Under the pieces are notes generated by a model. That model did no database searches. It worked only from the letters and a program-made list of their open reading frames with translations, and was not told where the DNA came from. From contig JAAYVZ010000208.1 of assembly GCA_012516935.1 (NCBI GenBank), positions 1 to 37,301 on the forward strand: a DNA stretch of 37,301 nt, read 5' to 3'. This DNA is from Holophagae bacterium (GTDB lineage: Bacteria; Acidobacteriota; Thermoanaerobaculia; Thermoanaerobaculales; Thermoanaerobaculaceae). Shown here in pieces: positions 11,333 to 18,058 of this stretch (position 1 is its first letter; the number at the start of each line of letters is the position of its first letter). The position numbers and the translations under genes were made by a program.

Positions 11333-11338
11333 TAGAAT
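11333..11338 (+). promoter_or_regulatory. Candidate -10 box of the DUF504/ATPase/RNase III operon
   Basis: TAGAAT is followed by 8 bases and then the GTG at 11347. No clear -35 hexamer is present. It lies in the 159-base divergent region shared with kgd. Confidence 0.4.
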
Positions 11339-11346
11339 CCCTTCCG

Positions 11347-11541
11347 GTGAGTGAGCATTCGTTGGTGTGTCCGGCAGGCGACAGGCTCGTCGAGCTTGGA
11401 CGTCTGCGTCGCTTCCCGGTTGGAGGTCGGCACCGGCTGGCGCTGGTCGGGTGGAGCCTCACCGCGACGGAAGCGGTGGTTGGCTCGATCGCCCCCGCCG
11501 CCGGGCAGCGGGAACTCCCGCTGCGCGTGGTGGGGGGCTGA
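11347..11541 (+). CDS. Small hypothetical protein, first ORF of the RNase III operon
   Basis: This is a 64-residue open frame from a GTG placed 8 bases after a TAGAAT box, ending 4 bases before the start of the DUF504 gene. Third codon positions are mostly G or C, as in neighbouring genes, and the overlapping frames give Arg-rich, unlikely proteins. The predicted product (SEHSLVCPAGDRLVELGRLR...) has no motif I recognise, no signal peptide and no membrane span. It could be a real small partner of the downstream RNA genes or merely a translated leader that feeds ribosomes into the DUF504 start. I lean slightly towards a real gene, with low certainty. Confidence 0.42.
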   Translation: MSEHSLVCPAGDRLVELGRLRRFPVGGRHRLALVGWSLTATEAVVGSIAPAAGQRELPLRVVGG

Positions 11542-11545
11542 GGCG

Positions 11546-11806
11546 GTGACCGTTCGGGAGCTCCTCAACCGCTTGCGGTGGGATCCCACAGCGGTGCGGG
11601 TCGGGGTGACGATCGAGCTGCGGGTGCGGAAACAAGGGCGTGAGACGACGCAACAGCTGCCGTTCGAGCTCGTGCAGGAGATACTCCCGGCGGGGGTCGT
11701 TTCGCAGGACGGTACGTTCCTGCCGTACCATCGGATAGTTGCGGTGCGGCGCGGTCGCGAGGTGCTGTGGCCGGCGCCAGCAAGGAGTGAGCATGGGCAA
11801 ACGTGA
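11546..11806 (+). CDS. DUF504 / MJ1316-type RNA-end-binding protein
   Basis: This 86-residue protein begins VTVRELLNRLRWDP and ends with DGTFLPYHRIVAVRRGREVLW. These two blocks are the hallmarks of the DUF504 (UPF0248, MJ1316) family: an N-terminal LNR-[IL]-[KR]-WD helix and a C-terminal IP-[FY]-HR-[IV]-strand ending in a VW. The family is commonest in archaea and is proposed to recognise RNA ends carrying cyclic phosphates, because the same domain is found attached to RNA ligase and repair enzymes; the biochemical role is not settled. The GTG at 11546 was chosen to match the family start. The last 14 bases overlap the ATPase gene, so the two are translationally linked. The assignment is by eye and no alignment was possible. 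Confidence 0.78.
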   Translation: MTVRELLNRLRWDPTAVRVGVTIELRVRKQGRETTQQLPFELVQEILPAGVVSQDGTFLPYHRIVAVRRGREVLWPAPARSEHGQT

Positions 11807-14090
11807 GCTTCTGATCGGGGGCACGGTGGCGGCTGGCGCCGCCGAGCCGGTGCGGCTGAGCGCCGACGTGCTCACCACGCACGGGGTGATCCTCGGCATG
11901 ACGGGTTCGGGCAAGACGGGTCTGGCGGTCGTGATGCTGGAGGAGCTCGCACGGCAGCGGGTGCCGCTTCTCATTTGCGACCTCAAGGGCGACCTCACCA
12001 ACCTGCTGTTGACGTTTCCGGGTCTGGCACCGGCCGACTTCGTGCCCTACCTGCCGGTGAGCACGCCGCCGGCGGAGCGACAGGCGGCGGCCGAGGCGGT
12101 CGCCGGGCGCTGGCAGCAGGGGCTCGCGCAATGGGGGTTGGGGTCGGCCGAGATCGCCGAGCTGCGCCAGGCGGTGCGCTGGCAGCTCCTCACCCCGGGC
12201 TCCGGGGTAGCGCCGGTGAACCTCCTGCCGGCGCTCGCTCCACCCGAGGGCTACGACCCCGACCTCGACCCCGACGGGGCGCGGAGCCGTCTCGACGGTA
12301 CCGCCGCCGGCTTGCTGGCGCTCGTGGACCGCGGCGGCGACCCGCTTTCGGACCGTGACCACGTGCTGCTCGCGACGCTGCTCGATGCCGCCTGGCGGCA
12401 GGGTCAGGCGCTCAACCTGGCCGAGCTCATCCGGCAGATCGCTTCCCCTCCCGTGAGCCAGTTCGGGGTGCTCGACGCCGAGACGTTCTACCCGAGCAGG
12501 GAGCGCCAGGGTTTGGTGGTGGCGTTCAACACCGTGTTGGCGAGCCCGGCGTTTGCGGTCTGGACGCGTGGTGTGCCGCTGTCGATGGAGGAGATGGCTG
12601 GGTCGCCCGAGACGCCATGTGCGACGATTCTCTACCTTGCCCATCTCGCCGATCGCGAGCGGCTCTCGTTCCTCACCTTGTTGTTCTCGACGCTGCTATC
12701 GTGGGTGCGCTCCCAGCCCGGGAGCGAGAGCCTGCGGGTGCTGCTGTACCTCGACGAGGTACAAGGGATCCTGCCGCCCTCCGCCATGCCGCCGACCAAA
12801 CCGCCGCTGCTGACGCTACTCAAGCAGGGGCGGGCGTTCGGGGCCGGCGTGCTGCTCGCGACCCAGAACCCGGTGGACCTGGACTACAAGGCGCTCGGCA
12901 ACGCCGGCCTCAAGCTGCTCGGCCGCCTCGACACCGAAAACGATCGTCGGCGCGCCCTCGAGGGGCTGGATCTCGCCGGTGGTGCCCCGGAGAAGGCAGT
13001 AGCCAGCCTCCAGCCGCGCCAGTTCCTGCTCGCCGGTGCGCGCGCCGGCACCCCACAGGTCATCACCTCACGTTGGGCGATGTCGTACCTGCGCGGTCCC
13101 CTCACCTTGACGGAGGTGAAGCCGCTGATCGCCGGGCTCGCCATGCCAGCGGTGACGGCTGCAGCCGTCCCGGCCGTCCCCGCCGCGATCGACCTTCCGG
13201 ACGTCGAGGAGCTGTACGCCGCCGGACCGAACCTGCACCCGGCGGTGCTCGTGGAGGGGCGGGCCGTCTTCCGCAAGGCCGCACCGGCCGTGCAGCGCGA
13301 GGTGGTGGCGAGCTGGGTGGCGCCACTCGCTGAGCGCCGGATCGTCTGGGAGCGCCTCGCGGTTGCCGATCTGCCGCCGCTTGGAACCCGGCCGCCGGAG
13401 GGCTCGAGCTTGGGCGAGCTGCCTTCCAACGCCGGGGTGCTCATCAAGGGAGCGGCGCGAGAGTTCGTGCGCGAGCTCGCGGCCCACCCAGCCGAGGCGC
13501 TGTGGCACCGGCAGCTCAAGCTGGTGCAGGACGAGCACGAGGACGATGAGGGGTTCCGCGCCCGTTGTTTGGAGGCCGCGCGTGCCACCATGGACACCAA
13601 GACCGAGCAGCTCCGCGAGCGCTACGAGGACAAGCTGCGGCGCATCGACGACAAGCTGGTCCGCGAGCAAATGGAGCTGTCGCGCGGCCAGCAAGACCTG
13701 GCGGCGCGCCAGCGGCAGCAGCAGCTCACGGTCGCGGCTGGCGTCGGTGACACCCTGCTCTCGGGGCTCGGGGCGCTGCTCGGTGGCCGACGGACGGGGA
13801 TCTCCAGTGCCGTGCGCAAAGGCGCATCCACCGCGCGACAGGCGAGCGAGAAGCAGCGCATGACCGACCGGGCACGGGTCCAAGTCGCGAAGTCGGAGCA
13901 GGAGATCGCCGAGCTGCAGGGGGAGCGACAGCGCTTGCTCGACAAGCTGCAGCAGGAGATTGCAGCGCTGCAGTCCGAGGTGGAGCGTCTCGCCGCAGCG
14001 GTGGAGCGGGTACCGCTGGTGGCGGCGGCACGCGAGATCACGGTGCGGCGCGTGGCGCTCGTGTGGTTGCCTCCGGACACGGCGCGATGA
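11793..14090 (+). CDS. HerA/DUF87-like P-loop ATPase with C-terminal coiled coil
   Basis: The 765-residue protein has Walker A GMTGSGKT (residues 35-42), followed by LLICDLKGDLTNLL, and Walker B LLYLDE with Asp321-Glu322. A sensor-like segment follows (LLATQNPVDLDYKALGN), in the style of HerA/FtsK/VirB4 motor ATPases. A long coiled coil of Glu/Gln/Arg-rich heptads runs from about residue 605 to 650 and again from 690 to 745, separated by a small Gly/Ala-rich hydrophobic segment (DTLLSGLGALLGG). HerA-type ATPases are usually hexameric nucleic-acid translocases. The ATG at 11793 has an AAGGAG site and lies inside the end of the DUF504 gene. Its stop overlaps the RNase III start (ATGA). The context points to an RNA role, but the substrate is unknown. 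Confidence 0.82.
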   Translation: MGKRELLIGGTVAAGAAEPVRLSADVLTTHGVILGMTGSGKTGLAVVMLEELARQRVPLLICDLKGDLTNLLLTFPGLAPADFVPYLPVSTPPAERQAAAEAVAGRWQQGLAQWGLGSAEIAELRQAVRWQLLTPGSGVAPVNLLPALAPPEGYDPDLDPDGARSRLDGTAAGLLALVDRGGDPLSDRDHVLLATLLDAAWRQGQALNLAELIRQIASPPVSQFGVLDAETFYPSRERQGLVVAFNTVLASPAFAVWTRGVPLSMEEMAGSPETPCATILYLAHLADRERLSFLTLLFSTLLSWVRSQPGSESLRVLLYLDEVQGILPPSAMPPTKPPLLTLLKQGRAFGAGVLLATQNPVDLDYKALGNAGLKLLGRLDTENDRRRALEGLDLAGGAPEKAVASLQPRQFLLAGARAGTPQVITSRWAMSYLRGPLTLTEVKPLIAGLAMPAVTAAAVPAVPAAIDLPDVEELYAAGPNLHPAVLVEGRAVFRKAAPAVQREVVASWVAPLAERRIVWERLAVADLPPLGTRPPEGSSLGELPSNAGVLIKGAAREFVRELAAHPAEALWHRQLKLVQDEHEDDEGFRARCLEAARATMDTKTEQLRERYEDKLRRIDDKLVREQMELSRGQQDLAARQRQQQLTVAAGVGDTLLSGLGALLGGRRTGISSAVRKGASTARQASEKQRMTDRARVQVAKSEQEIAELQGERQRLLDKLQQEIAALQSEVERLAAAVERVPLVAAAREITVRRVALVWLPPDTAR

Positions 14091-14806
14091 GCGGGCGCGA
14101 GGACGCCCTCGACGCCTTCGAGGCGGCGCTCGGCTTCCGCTTCAAAGACCGCTCCCTGCTCGATCTCGCACTGCGCCACCGCTCGGCGGCGCACGAGCAG
14201 ATGATGGGCTCCAACGAACGGCTCGAGTTTCTGGGCGACGCCGCGCTCTCGCACGCCGTCGCGGCGTTGCTGTATGCGCGCTGGCCGGCTGCCAGCGAGG
14301 GCCAGCTCACGCGAGCGCGCTCGGCGGTCGTGCGCGAGGTGACGCTGGCGGCGGTCGCCCGCGAGCTGGGTATCGCCGACGTCCTCGACCTGGGCAGTGG
14401 CTTGCGGGGCGAGGCTCCCAGCCCGTCGTTGCTGGCCGACACACTGGAAGCCGTGCTCGGTGCGGTGCTGCTCGATGGGGGTTGGCGGGTGGTGCAACGT
14501 TTGGTGCGCAGGCTGCTTGGCCCGGTGCTCGCCGACCTCGATCCCGATGGTCTTGGTCGCTCCGAGCCGAAGTCGGAGCTGCAGGAGCACGCCCAGCGGC
14601 ACGGCTGGCCGCTACCGACCTACCGCGAGGTGGAGCTGCGCGGTCCGGCGCACGCCCGGACCTACGTCTACGAGGTGGAGCTGCACGGCCGGGTGCTGGG
14701 CCGCGGCGAGGGCAGCTCCAAGCGCAGCGCCCAACACGCTGCGGCGTTGGATGCACTCGCGTCGCTACCGAGAGGAGAGGGGATAGGAAACGACGGGGCG
14801 GGGTGA
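14087..14806 (+). CDS. rnc: Ribonuclease III
   Basis: This 239-residue enzyme cleaves double-stranded RNA in rRNA and mRNA maturation. The signature NERLEFLGDAALSHAV is present with metal ligands Glu47 and Asp51. The second metal pair is Asp118 and Glu121 in SLLADTLEAVLGAVLLDGG. Residues about 165-235 form a double-stranded-RNA-binding domain (PKSELQEHAQRHGWPLP, then the KRSAQHAA helix). Length and domain order are standard. The ATG at 14087 overlaps the ATPase stop by 4 bases. In many bacteria rnc sits with era, acpP or lepB; here it ends an operon with DUF504 and a HerA-like ATPase, which is unusual. The call is firm. Confidence 0.97.
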   Translation: MSGREDALDAFEAALGFRFKDRSLLDLALRHRSAAHEQMMGSNERLEFLGDAALSHAVAALLYARWPAASEGQLTRARSAVVREVTLAAVARELGIADVLDLGSGLRGEAPSPSLLADTLEAVLGAVLLDGGWRVVQRLVRRLLGPVLADLDPDGLGRSEPKSELQEHAQRHGWPLPTYREVELRGPAHARTYVYEVELHGRVLGRGEGSSKRSAQHAAALDALASLPRGEGIGNDGAG

Positions 14807-16405: not shown

Positions 16406-18058
16406 ATGCGATCGCGAGCTTTCTTGCTTGGCTTGCTTGTTCTTGTCGGCGCCGGGCTTGCGTCCGCCACCGAGCTGACGGTGCTCTTCACCTCCGACAT
16501 GCACGCTCACGTGCTGCCGTACGACGATGTTCGTCAACGTCCGGGGCGAGGCTCGATTGCCCAGGTGAAGAGCTACGTGGACGCGACCCGTGCGCGGGTG
16601 GGCAACCTCGTGGTGCTCGACGGCGGGGACGCCATCCAGGGCACCCCGCTCGCACACTACGCGCTGACCACGTCGGTCGGTGACGGTTCGGATCCGGCGA
16701 TCGCCGCCATGAACCTGGTTGGCTACGACGCGGCCGTGCTCGGCAACCACGAGTTCAACTTCGGCTTGGAGGTGCTGCGGCGCTCGCTCGCGCAGTCCCG
16801 TTTCCCGTGGCTGGGTGCCAACCTGGTCGGGGCGTCGGGCGAGCGGCTGCCCGTGCACCCCCACCGGCTGATCAAACGTGGGAGCGTCCGTATCGCGGTG
16901 CTCGGCCTCGCCAACCCCAACATCCCGCACTGGGACCCCCCCTCGCACCTCGGCGCGGTGACGTTCGCCGACCCCGTGGCGGTAGCGGCCGCCGAGGTCG
17001 CCGCCGTGCGCGAACGGGCCGATCTGGTCATCGTGCTCCTGCACGCCGGGTTCGAGCGTGACCTCGCAACCGGAGAGCCGGACGGCTCCGACTACGAGAA
17101 CTACGCCTGGCGCGTCGCTCAGGTGCCCGGGATCGACCTCCTGCTGACCGGGCACACCCACGAGAGCATCCCGCCACGGAAGCTCGGCAACGTCATCGTC
17201 GCCCAGCCGGGCAAGTGGGCCGAGTTCGTCACCCGGATCGACCTCAAGCTCGAGAGGCGCAAGGGGAGGTGGCAGATCGCCTCGTGGACGGGCTCGAATC
17301 AGGCGATGGAGAAACAGCCCGTTCACCCCGCGGTCGTGGCAGCGGTCGAGAAACTCCAAGACCGTGTCCGCGCTGAGCTCGCCAGGGTCGTCGGCGAGCT
17401 CGGCGCGCCGCTGACGTTGGGGGGCGTGCCGACCCGCGACGACGCTACCGTCGACCTCGTGCATGCGGTCCAGCTCGCTGCCACCGGTGCCCAGCTTTCG
17501 CTCGCCGCACCCCTTTCGAGCGCCCGCTATGAGGTGCCCGCGGGGCCGCTGCAGATGCGGGTCCTGCACGGCTTGTACCCGTATCCGAACACGGTGCTGA
17601 TGGTCGCTCTCACCGGCGCCCAGCTCCACAACGTCGTCGAGCACGCCGTGCGCGGGTGGCAGGGACTCGACTGCTCCCGCCCACAGGGGTGTACCCTCCT
17701 GCGCGATCCTCGGCTGCCCTACTACAACTACGACACCCTGCAAGGCGCGACCTACCTGGTGAACCCGCTGGCGCCGGTCGGCCAGCGCGTGCGCAACCTA
17801 CGCGTGAGCGGGAGGCCCGTCGAGCCGACGGCAACCTACACGCTGGCGGTCAACTCCTACCGGGCGGTTGGCGGCGGCAACTACCCCCATCTGTTAACGG
17901 CGCCGCGTCTGAAGGAGATCGATCGTCCGATGGTCGAGCTCATTGCGGAGTACATTGCCCGTCTCGGCACCGTCACTCCCGAGGCCGATGACAACTGGGC
18001 GTTCGCGATCCCCCTCGCCGAGGCCGTGGCACCTCCCTCGACCCTGCCGGTGCCGTAG
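16406..18058 (+). CDS. Periplasmic 5'-nucleotidase / 2',3'-cyclic phosphodiesterase (UshA/CpdB family)
   Basis: The 550-residue product starts with a Sec signal peptide (about residues 1-22), so it acts outside the inner membrane. The metallophosphatase half (24-270) shows all metal motifs: Asp31-x-His33, GGD at 73-75, GNHE at 113-116, His213 in LLHAGF, and GHTH with His250 and His252. The C-terminal nucleotidase domain (about 330-530) has YPYPNTVLMVALTG, the YNYDTLQGATY substrate loop and NSYRAVGGGNYP. The family hydrolyses nucleotides or 2',3'-cyclic nucleotides to scavenge phosphate and nucleosides. The aromatic YNYDTLQG loop leans to the CpdB side, but specificity cannot be fixed from sequence. 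The start has GAGGAGG 4 bases ahead. A weak CACCGG/CCGGTG stem (18122-18146) follows the stop. Confidence 0.9.
   Translation: MRSRAFLLGLLVLVGAGLASATELTVLFTSDMHAHVLPYDDVRQRPGRGSIAQVKSYVDATRARVGNLVVLDGGDAIQGTPLAHYALTTSVGDGSDPAIAAMNLVGYDAAVLGNHEFNFGLEVLRRSLAQSRFPWLGANLVGASGERLPVHPHRLIKRGSVRIAVLGLANPNIPHWDPPSHLGAVTFADPVAVAAAEVAAVRERADLVIVLLHAGFERDLATGEPDGSDYENYAWRVAQVPGIDLLLTGHTHESIPPRKLGNVIVAQPGKWAEFVTRIDLKLERRKGRWQIASWTGSNQAMEKQPVHPAVVAAVEKLQDRVRAELARVVGELGAPLTLGGVPTRDDATVDLVHAVQLAATGAQLSLAAPLSSARYEVPAGPLQMRVLHGLYPYPNTVLMVALTGAQLHNVVEHAVRGWQGLDCSRPQGCTLLRDPRLPYYNYDTLQGATYLVNPLAPVGQRVRNLRVSGRPVEPTATYTLAVNSYRAVGGGNYPHLLTAPRLKEIDRPMVELIAEYIARLGTVTPEADDNWAFAIPLAEAVAPPSTLPVP

Follow-up and report, generated by a model that had tools for sequence, protein, structure and literature searches.

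Genes and other features of the locus

The window analysed here is a 37,301-nt stretch of DNA from a metagenome-assembled genome (MAG; 3.7 Mb, 98% complete) of the Thermoanaerobaculaceae (Acidobacteriota), a family of soil and sediment bacteria. The locus of interest has the following features:

11333-11338, plus strand: TAGAAT, a possible -10 element of the operon, proposed from the sequence and from an analogous TACAAT in 11 family genomes
11347-11541, plus strand: 64-aa ORF with a GTG start, of doubtful standing as a gene; alternatively an untranslated leader
11490-11538, plus strand: long G+C-rich hairpin directly ahead of the DUF504 gene, predicted by folding; a possible, speculative RNase III target
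11546-11806, plus strand: DUF504/MJ1316 protein, 86 aa, GTG start (PF04457)
11793-14090, plus strand: HerA/FtsK-fold ATPase with a C-terminal coiled coil, 765 aa, ATG start (DUF87; fold match)
14087-14806, plus strand: rnc, RNase III with a dsRNA-binding domain, 239 aa, ATG start (TIGR02191, dsrm)

The original prediction described three genes overlapping by 14 and 4 bp, and this arrangement is confirmed: the DUF504 and HerA-like genes share ATGGGCAAACGTGA, and the HerA-like gene and rnc share ATGA. In close pairs all three genes have dN/dS values of 0.11-0.24, which indicates purifying selection. The family assignments also hold, with profile scores above the cut-off for DUF504 (PF04457, 40 bits against 26.3), for the ATPase (DUF87, 37.9 bits against 23.2) and for RNase III (TIGR02191, 195 bits against 166), and the RNA theme proposed for the locus is upheld.

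The DUF504 protein carries two motifs, LNR.RW(D) and (I/L)P(Y/F)HR, that are conserved in 11 family sequences and are also found in archaeal and Myxococcota forms. Its AlphaFold model has a pLDDT of 87.8, and a fold search with it against the PDB returned nothing below E 0.45. A profile search of the PDB gave only matches to erbB-4, which we judged to be chance, and neither kind of search found a solved structure for the MJ1316/DUF504 family. The RNase III, encoded by the sole rnc copy detected in the genome, has a dsrm domain and, when aligned to a solved bacterial enzyme of this kind (chain 7r97), shows the acidic active-site motifs NERLEFLGD and LADTLEA.

The predicted fold of the ATPase resembles solved HerA hexamers (4d2i, E 1.2e-12), with further matches to DndH and TdpAB. 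Walker A (GMTGSGKT, with MTGSGKTG invariant) and the DE of a Walker-B-like LLYLDE are conserved in the homologue alignment. The protein scores only 18.5 and 22.2 bits against the HerA equivalogs of NCBIfam, where the cut-off for canonical membership is 800. Most solved HerA relatives work on DNA, and it is possible, if on balance somewhat unlikely, that this one belongs with the DNA motors of HerA-NurA or anti-phage systems and rides in the operon by chance, an explanation compatible with either of the two readings of DUF504 and RNase III weighed below. The fold search matched it to DNA translocases and to ATPases of defence systems, and it has weak matches to HerA defence profiles and to mad8 of PADLOC (3.6e-12 over part of the profile, which we judged to be superfamily similarity). 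However, a strong defence-profile match is absent, and no NurA-, SIR2- or DUF4297-like partner was recognised adjacent to it in the sampled regions, in which the neighbours were domain-scanned in part.

The region upstream of DUF504

A possible 64-residue ORF had also been proposed ahead of DUF504; nothing homologous to it precedes DUF504 in the other genome of the same genus or in the rest of the family, and its GC by codon position is equivocal. With TAGAAT standing 8 nt 5' of its GTG, this stretch could represent leader sequence and not a gene. A longer DUF504, extended N-terminally from 11351, was rejected because the codon-position GC of the added part is unlike that of coding sequence. 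The segment 11345-11560 folds at -120.7 kcal/mol, more stably than shuffled sequences (z -2.58), and the window gave no Rfam match. E. coli RNase III is autoregulated through cleavage of a leader hairpin, and by analogy the hairpin at 11490-11538 is conceivably a candidate site for such a loop.

A consensus scan for a full sigma-70 promoter found none. The related genera g2, g4 and g211 have TACAAT 5-7 nt upstream of the DUF504 start codon in 11 of 11 genomes (L024-L034), counting two in which a neighbouring GTG or ATG was taken by eye as the start; the background is about 0.0007 per 8-nt slot, and the 11 genomes are related to one another. This spacing suggests that TACAAT is the operon promoter in these genera and that it would give a leaderless, or nearly leaderless, transcript beginning at or near the DUF504 start codon. 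The window's genome has no TACAAT directly before DUF504 and has TAGAAT at 11333-11338 instead.

Distribution and gene order in the Thermoanaerobaculaceae

Few Acidobacteriota encode DUF504: it turned up in 8 of 396 genomes sampled from the phylum. Within the Thermoanaerobaculaceae it is present in 13 of 17 genomes, representing four of six genera, and there it is linked to rnc wherever the contigs permit checking, with identities among the DUF504 proteins of these genera going down to 47%. The genera g2 and g4 have DUF504 followed directly by rnc, mostly with a 4-bp overlap and with no ATPase between. A HerA-like gene separates the two in the window, which belongs to g1 (the sister MAG of this genus has a contig that breaks off within HerA, short of the place where rnc would show), and in g211 (genome G397). 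The g211 order was joined from a pair of contigs: the first breaks off within HerA, and the second opens with the C-terminal end of HerA and continues into rnc, the two genes overlapping by 4 bp. DUF504 is missing from g3, in which murA and rnc are close together, and from the outlying genus g212. The idea of a single conserved three-gene module was thus not supported by the comparison, the ATPase standing between DUF504 and rnc in two genera only. The linkage of DUF504 to rnc was borne out across four genera, all of this family; the samples searched beyond it yielded no further case.

Homologues of the HerA-like gene are elsewhere or absent in g2, g4 and g3, and three g2 genomes keep a copy elsewhere that is 66-68% identical. 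Across the phylum a clear homologue is present in about 60 of 247 genomes (our own count of strong matches), standing alone, and no gene recurs throughout as its neighbour in the regions that were inspected, as judged from gene calls that were domain-scanned in part. In g1 as in g211 the DUF504 stop falls within the CGTGAG that also holds the HerA start, and in a rooted tree of the rnc, DUF4388 and 5'-nucleotidase proteins, in which many outgroup rows are rnc only and long branches are present, g1 groups with g2 and not with g211, a g1+g211 clade being rejected (p-AU 0.014). The homologous junction in two genera that are not sisters suggests that the DUF504-HerA-rnc order is probably ancestral, the ATPase having later been lost or moved.

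An old trio with tight overlaps in the window and, over two contigs, in G397 is what would be expected if the HerA motor fed nucleic acid to RNase III under the guidance of DUF504. We nevertheless think such a machine very unlikely, given that rnc stays in g2, g4 and g3 (as DUF504-rnc in g2 and g4) with HerA absent or elsewhere, that the relatives of the ATPase across the phylum have no constant partner, and that most of the solved ones act on DNA. Because the trio is broken up in other genera, the ATPase does not appear to be needed by the DUF504-rnc pair, and we treat it as an optional passenger rather than a core part of the operon.

We give equally little credence to the overlap being a meaningless accident of a compact genome. 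Synteny in the family extends to the flanking genes for MurA, an epimerase, a DUF4388 protein and a 5'-nucleotidase, as such an accident would have it, but the unit is retained over four genera and survives changes of neighbour, and both the overlap and the promoter are conserved. Even within the window's genus the upstream neighbours differ, with KGD in the window and other genes in the sister MAG. By its conserved linkage and overlaps, the core of the operon is DUF504 followed by RNase III. As a separate observation, the window also encodes, at 16406-18058, a 5'-nucleotidase/2',3'-cyclic phosphodiesterase-like protein (resembling CpdB and UshA) that is probably exported and whose gene lies near rnc in much of the family.

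DUF504 relatives elsewhere

In the Myxococcota, DUF504 genes lie between rtcB and rtcA (L150:4678-7225 and L152:4792-7458) or form the N-terminus of RtcA (L151:228-1799 and L080:7986-9431), the matches in L152 and L151 being slightly below the Pfam cut-off with alignments that span the whole domain; in one case a Tpt1/KptA gene is found a few kb off. We found no description of these operons or fusions. Other bacterial DUF504 domains are fused to EEP, 2'-5' RNA ligase (2H) and poly(A) polymerase domains, and MJ1316 has been treated as a recogniser of 2',3'-cyclic ends (PMC6514570). Taken together, these sequence contexts support work on RNA ends or RNA repair for bacterial DUF504. The expectation that archaeal DUF504 would also lie next to RNA genes was contradicted in the sampled archaeal phylum (L188-L204), where its neighbours are an ArsR-family gene (PF09824), argininosuccinate lyase or BtpA, and where neither RtcA nor RtcB was matched within 1.5 kb.

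RtcB is encoded in nearly all Thermoanaerobaculaceae genomes, on other contigs and never beside DUF504; this includes the window's genome, in which RtcB lies on a different contig from DUF504, so that the two do not form an rtcBA-type operon, and in which RtcA was not found. Within the family RtcA occurs only in g3, which has no DUF504, and is absent from every DUF504-bearing genome. This mutual exclusion says little, since it comes from one clade and the Myxococcota carry both. We also noted by eye that the divergent RtcB of the window's genome (L218:3870-6680) is head to head with a SelD-like (selenophosphate synthase) gene.

Discussion

The data presented here give good support to a real pairing of DUF504 with rnc in the Thermoanaerobaculaceae, one that is undescribed as far as we searched: in the literature searched, of which coverage was partial, we found no description of the pair, nor, as had been claimed earlier, of any system with all three genes. 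To our knowledge, few dedicated partners of RNase III are known in bacteria. We tentatively favour the explanation that DUF504 is an RNA-end-recognising accessory of RNase III, the two acting together on RNA that is broken or structured. DUF504 would bind RNA ends, perhaps those on which breakage or cleavage by a toxin leaves a 2',3'-cyclic phosphate, and would pass the structured RNA bearing them to RNase III to be trimmed or destroyed; alternatively, it would control RNase III on such RNA. RNase III products have 5'-phosphate and 3'-hydroxyl ends, so DUF504 would recognise the substrates of RNase III and not its products. End binding is suggested by the family context of DUF504, whereas contact with RNase III is suggested by the gene linkage.

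Several observations speak for this explanation: DUF504 and rnc stay paired in four genera while the upstream neighbours changed in g1; the genes overlap in most genomes, TACAAT precedes DUF504 in 11 of 11, and selection is purifying; and the DUF504 relatives have rtcB/rtcA neighbourhoods, RtcA fusions and fusions to end-processing enzymes. Against it, linkage within a single family in which other genes are syntenic too could reflect shared history and not repeated selection, g3 keeps rnc without DUF504, the archaeal neighbours are not RNA genes, and DUF504 has no credible PDB relative or fold match.

Ranking close behind is plain co-expression, a plausible alternative in which a common promoter drives the genes of two independent RNA housekeeping proteins, DUF504 and RNase III, that never meet, with DUF504 serving RtcB-type repair or tRNA handling in trans. 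The Myxococcota relatives go with RtcB and RtcA and not with rnc, nearly all family genomes have RtcB and those with DUF504 lack RtcA, and the DUF504-rnc linkage is confined to one family, all of which would fit co-expression; however, the RtcB genes of the family are on other contigs, whereas the DUF504-rnc overlap lasts across genera. A bolder extension of the RNA-end explanation, which we consider improbable, is a DUF504-guided RNase III in which DUF504 would be an end-sensing subunit, the clearance counterpart of RtcB-DUF504-RtcA, with an ancestral HerA motor mostly dropped. Through this operon the function of MJ1316/DUF504 could be tested concretely, as could the idea that bacteria sense the ends of a broken RNA to decide if it is repaired or destroyed.

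Comparison with known systems

The ATPase shares the HerA/FtsK fold of HerA-NurA, SIR2-HerA, DUF4297-HerA and TdpAB, but differs from them in its long C-terminal coiled coil, in having no nuclease, SIR2 or DUF4297 partner recognised adjacent, and in that genes of its type stand alone in most Acidobacteriota. The MJ1316-EEP-2H-poly(A) polymerase proteins of Acidobacteriota and Myxococcota, which we take to be LENG9-like repair proteins, have the same DUF504 domain fused to RNA-end enzymes, whereas DUF504 here is stand-alone and groups with the archaeal and RtcA-linked forms and not with the EEP-fused ones. The likeness to the rtcBA operon is that its Myxococcota versions have DUF504 inside the operon or fused to RtcA, which points to the handling of 3'-phosphate or cyclic ends; here, in contrast, DUF504 is paired with RNase III, the DUF504-bearing genomes of the family lack RtcA, and RtcB is unlinked. 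Finally, rnc belongs to operons in other bacteria too (rnc-era and acpP-fabF-rnc), and, as in those, it would share its transcript here with a further gene of RNA metabolism or housekeeping; in the outgroup family f2 a different gene lies upstream of rnc, and in the Thermoanaerobaculaceae operon that upstream place is held by DUF504.
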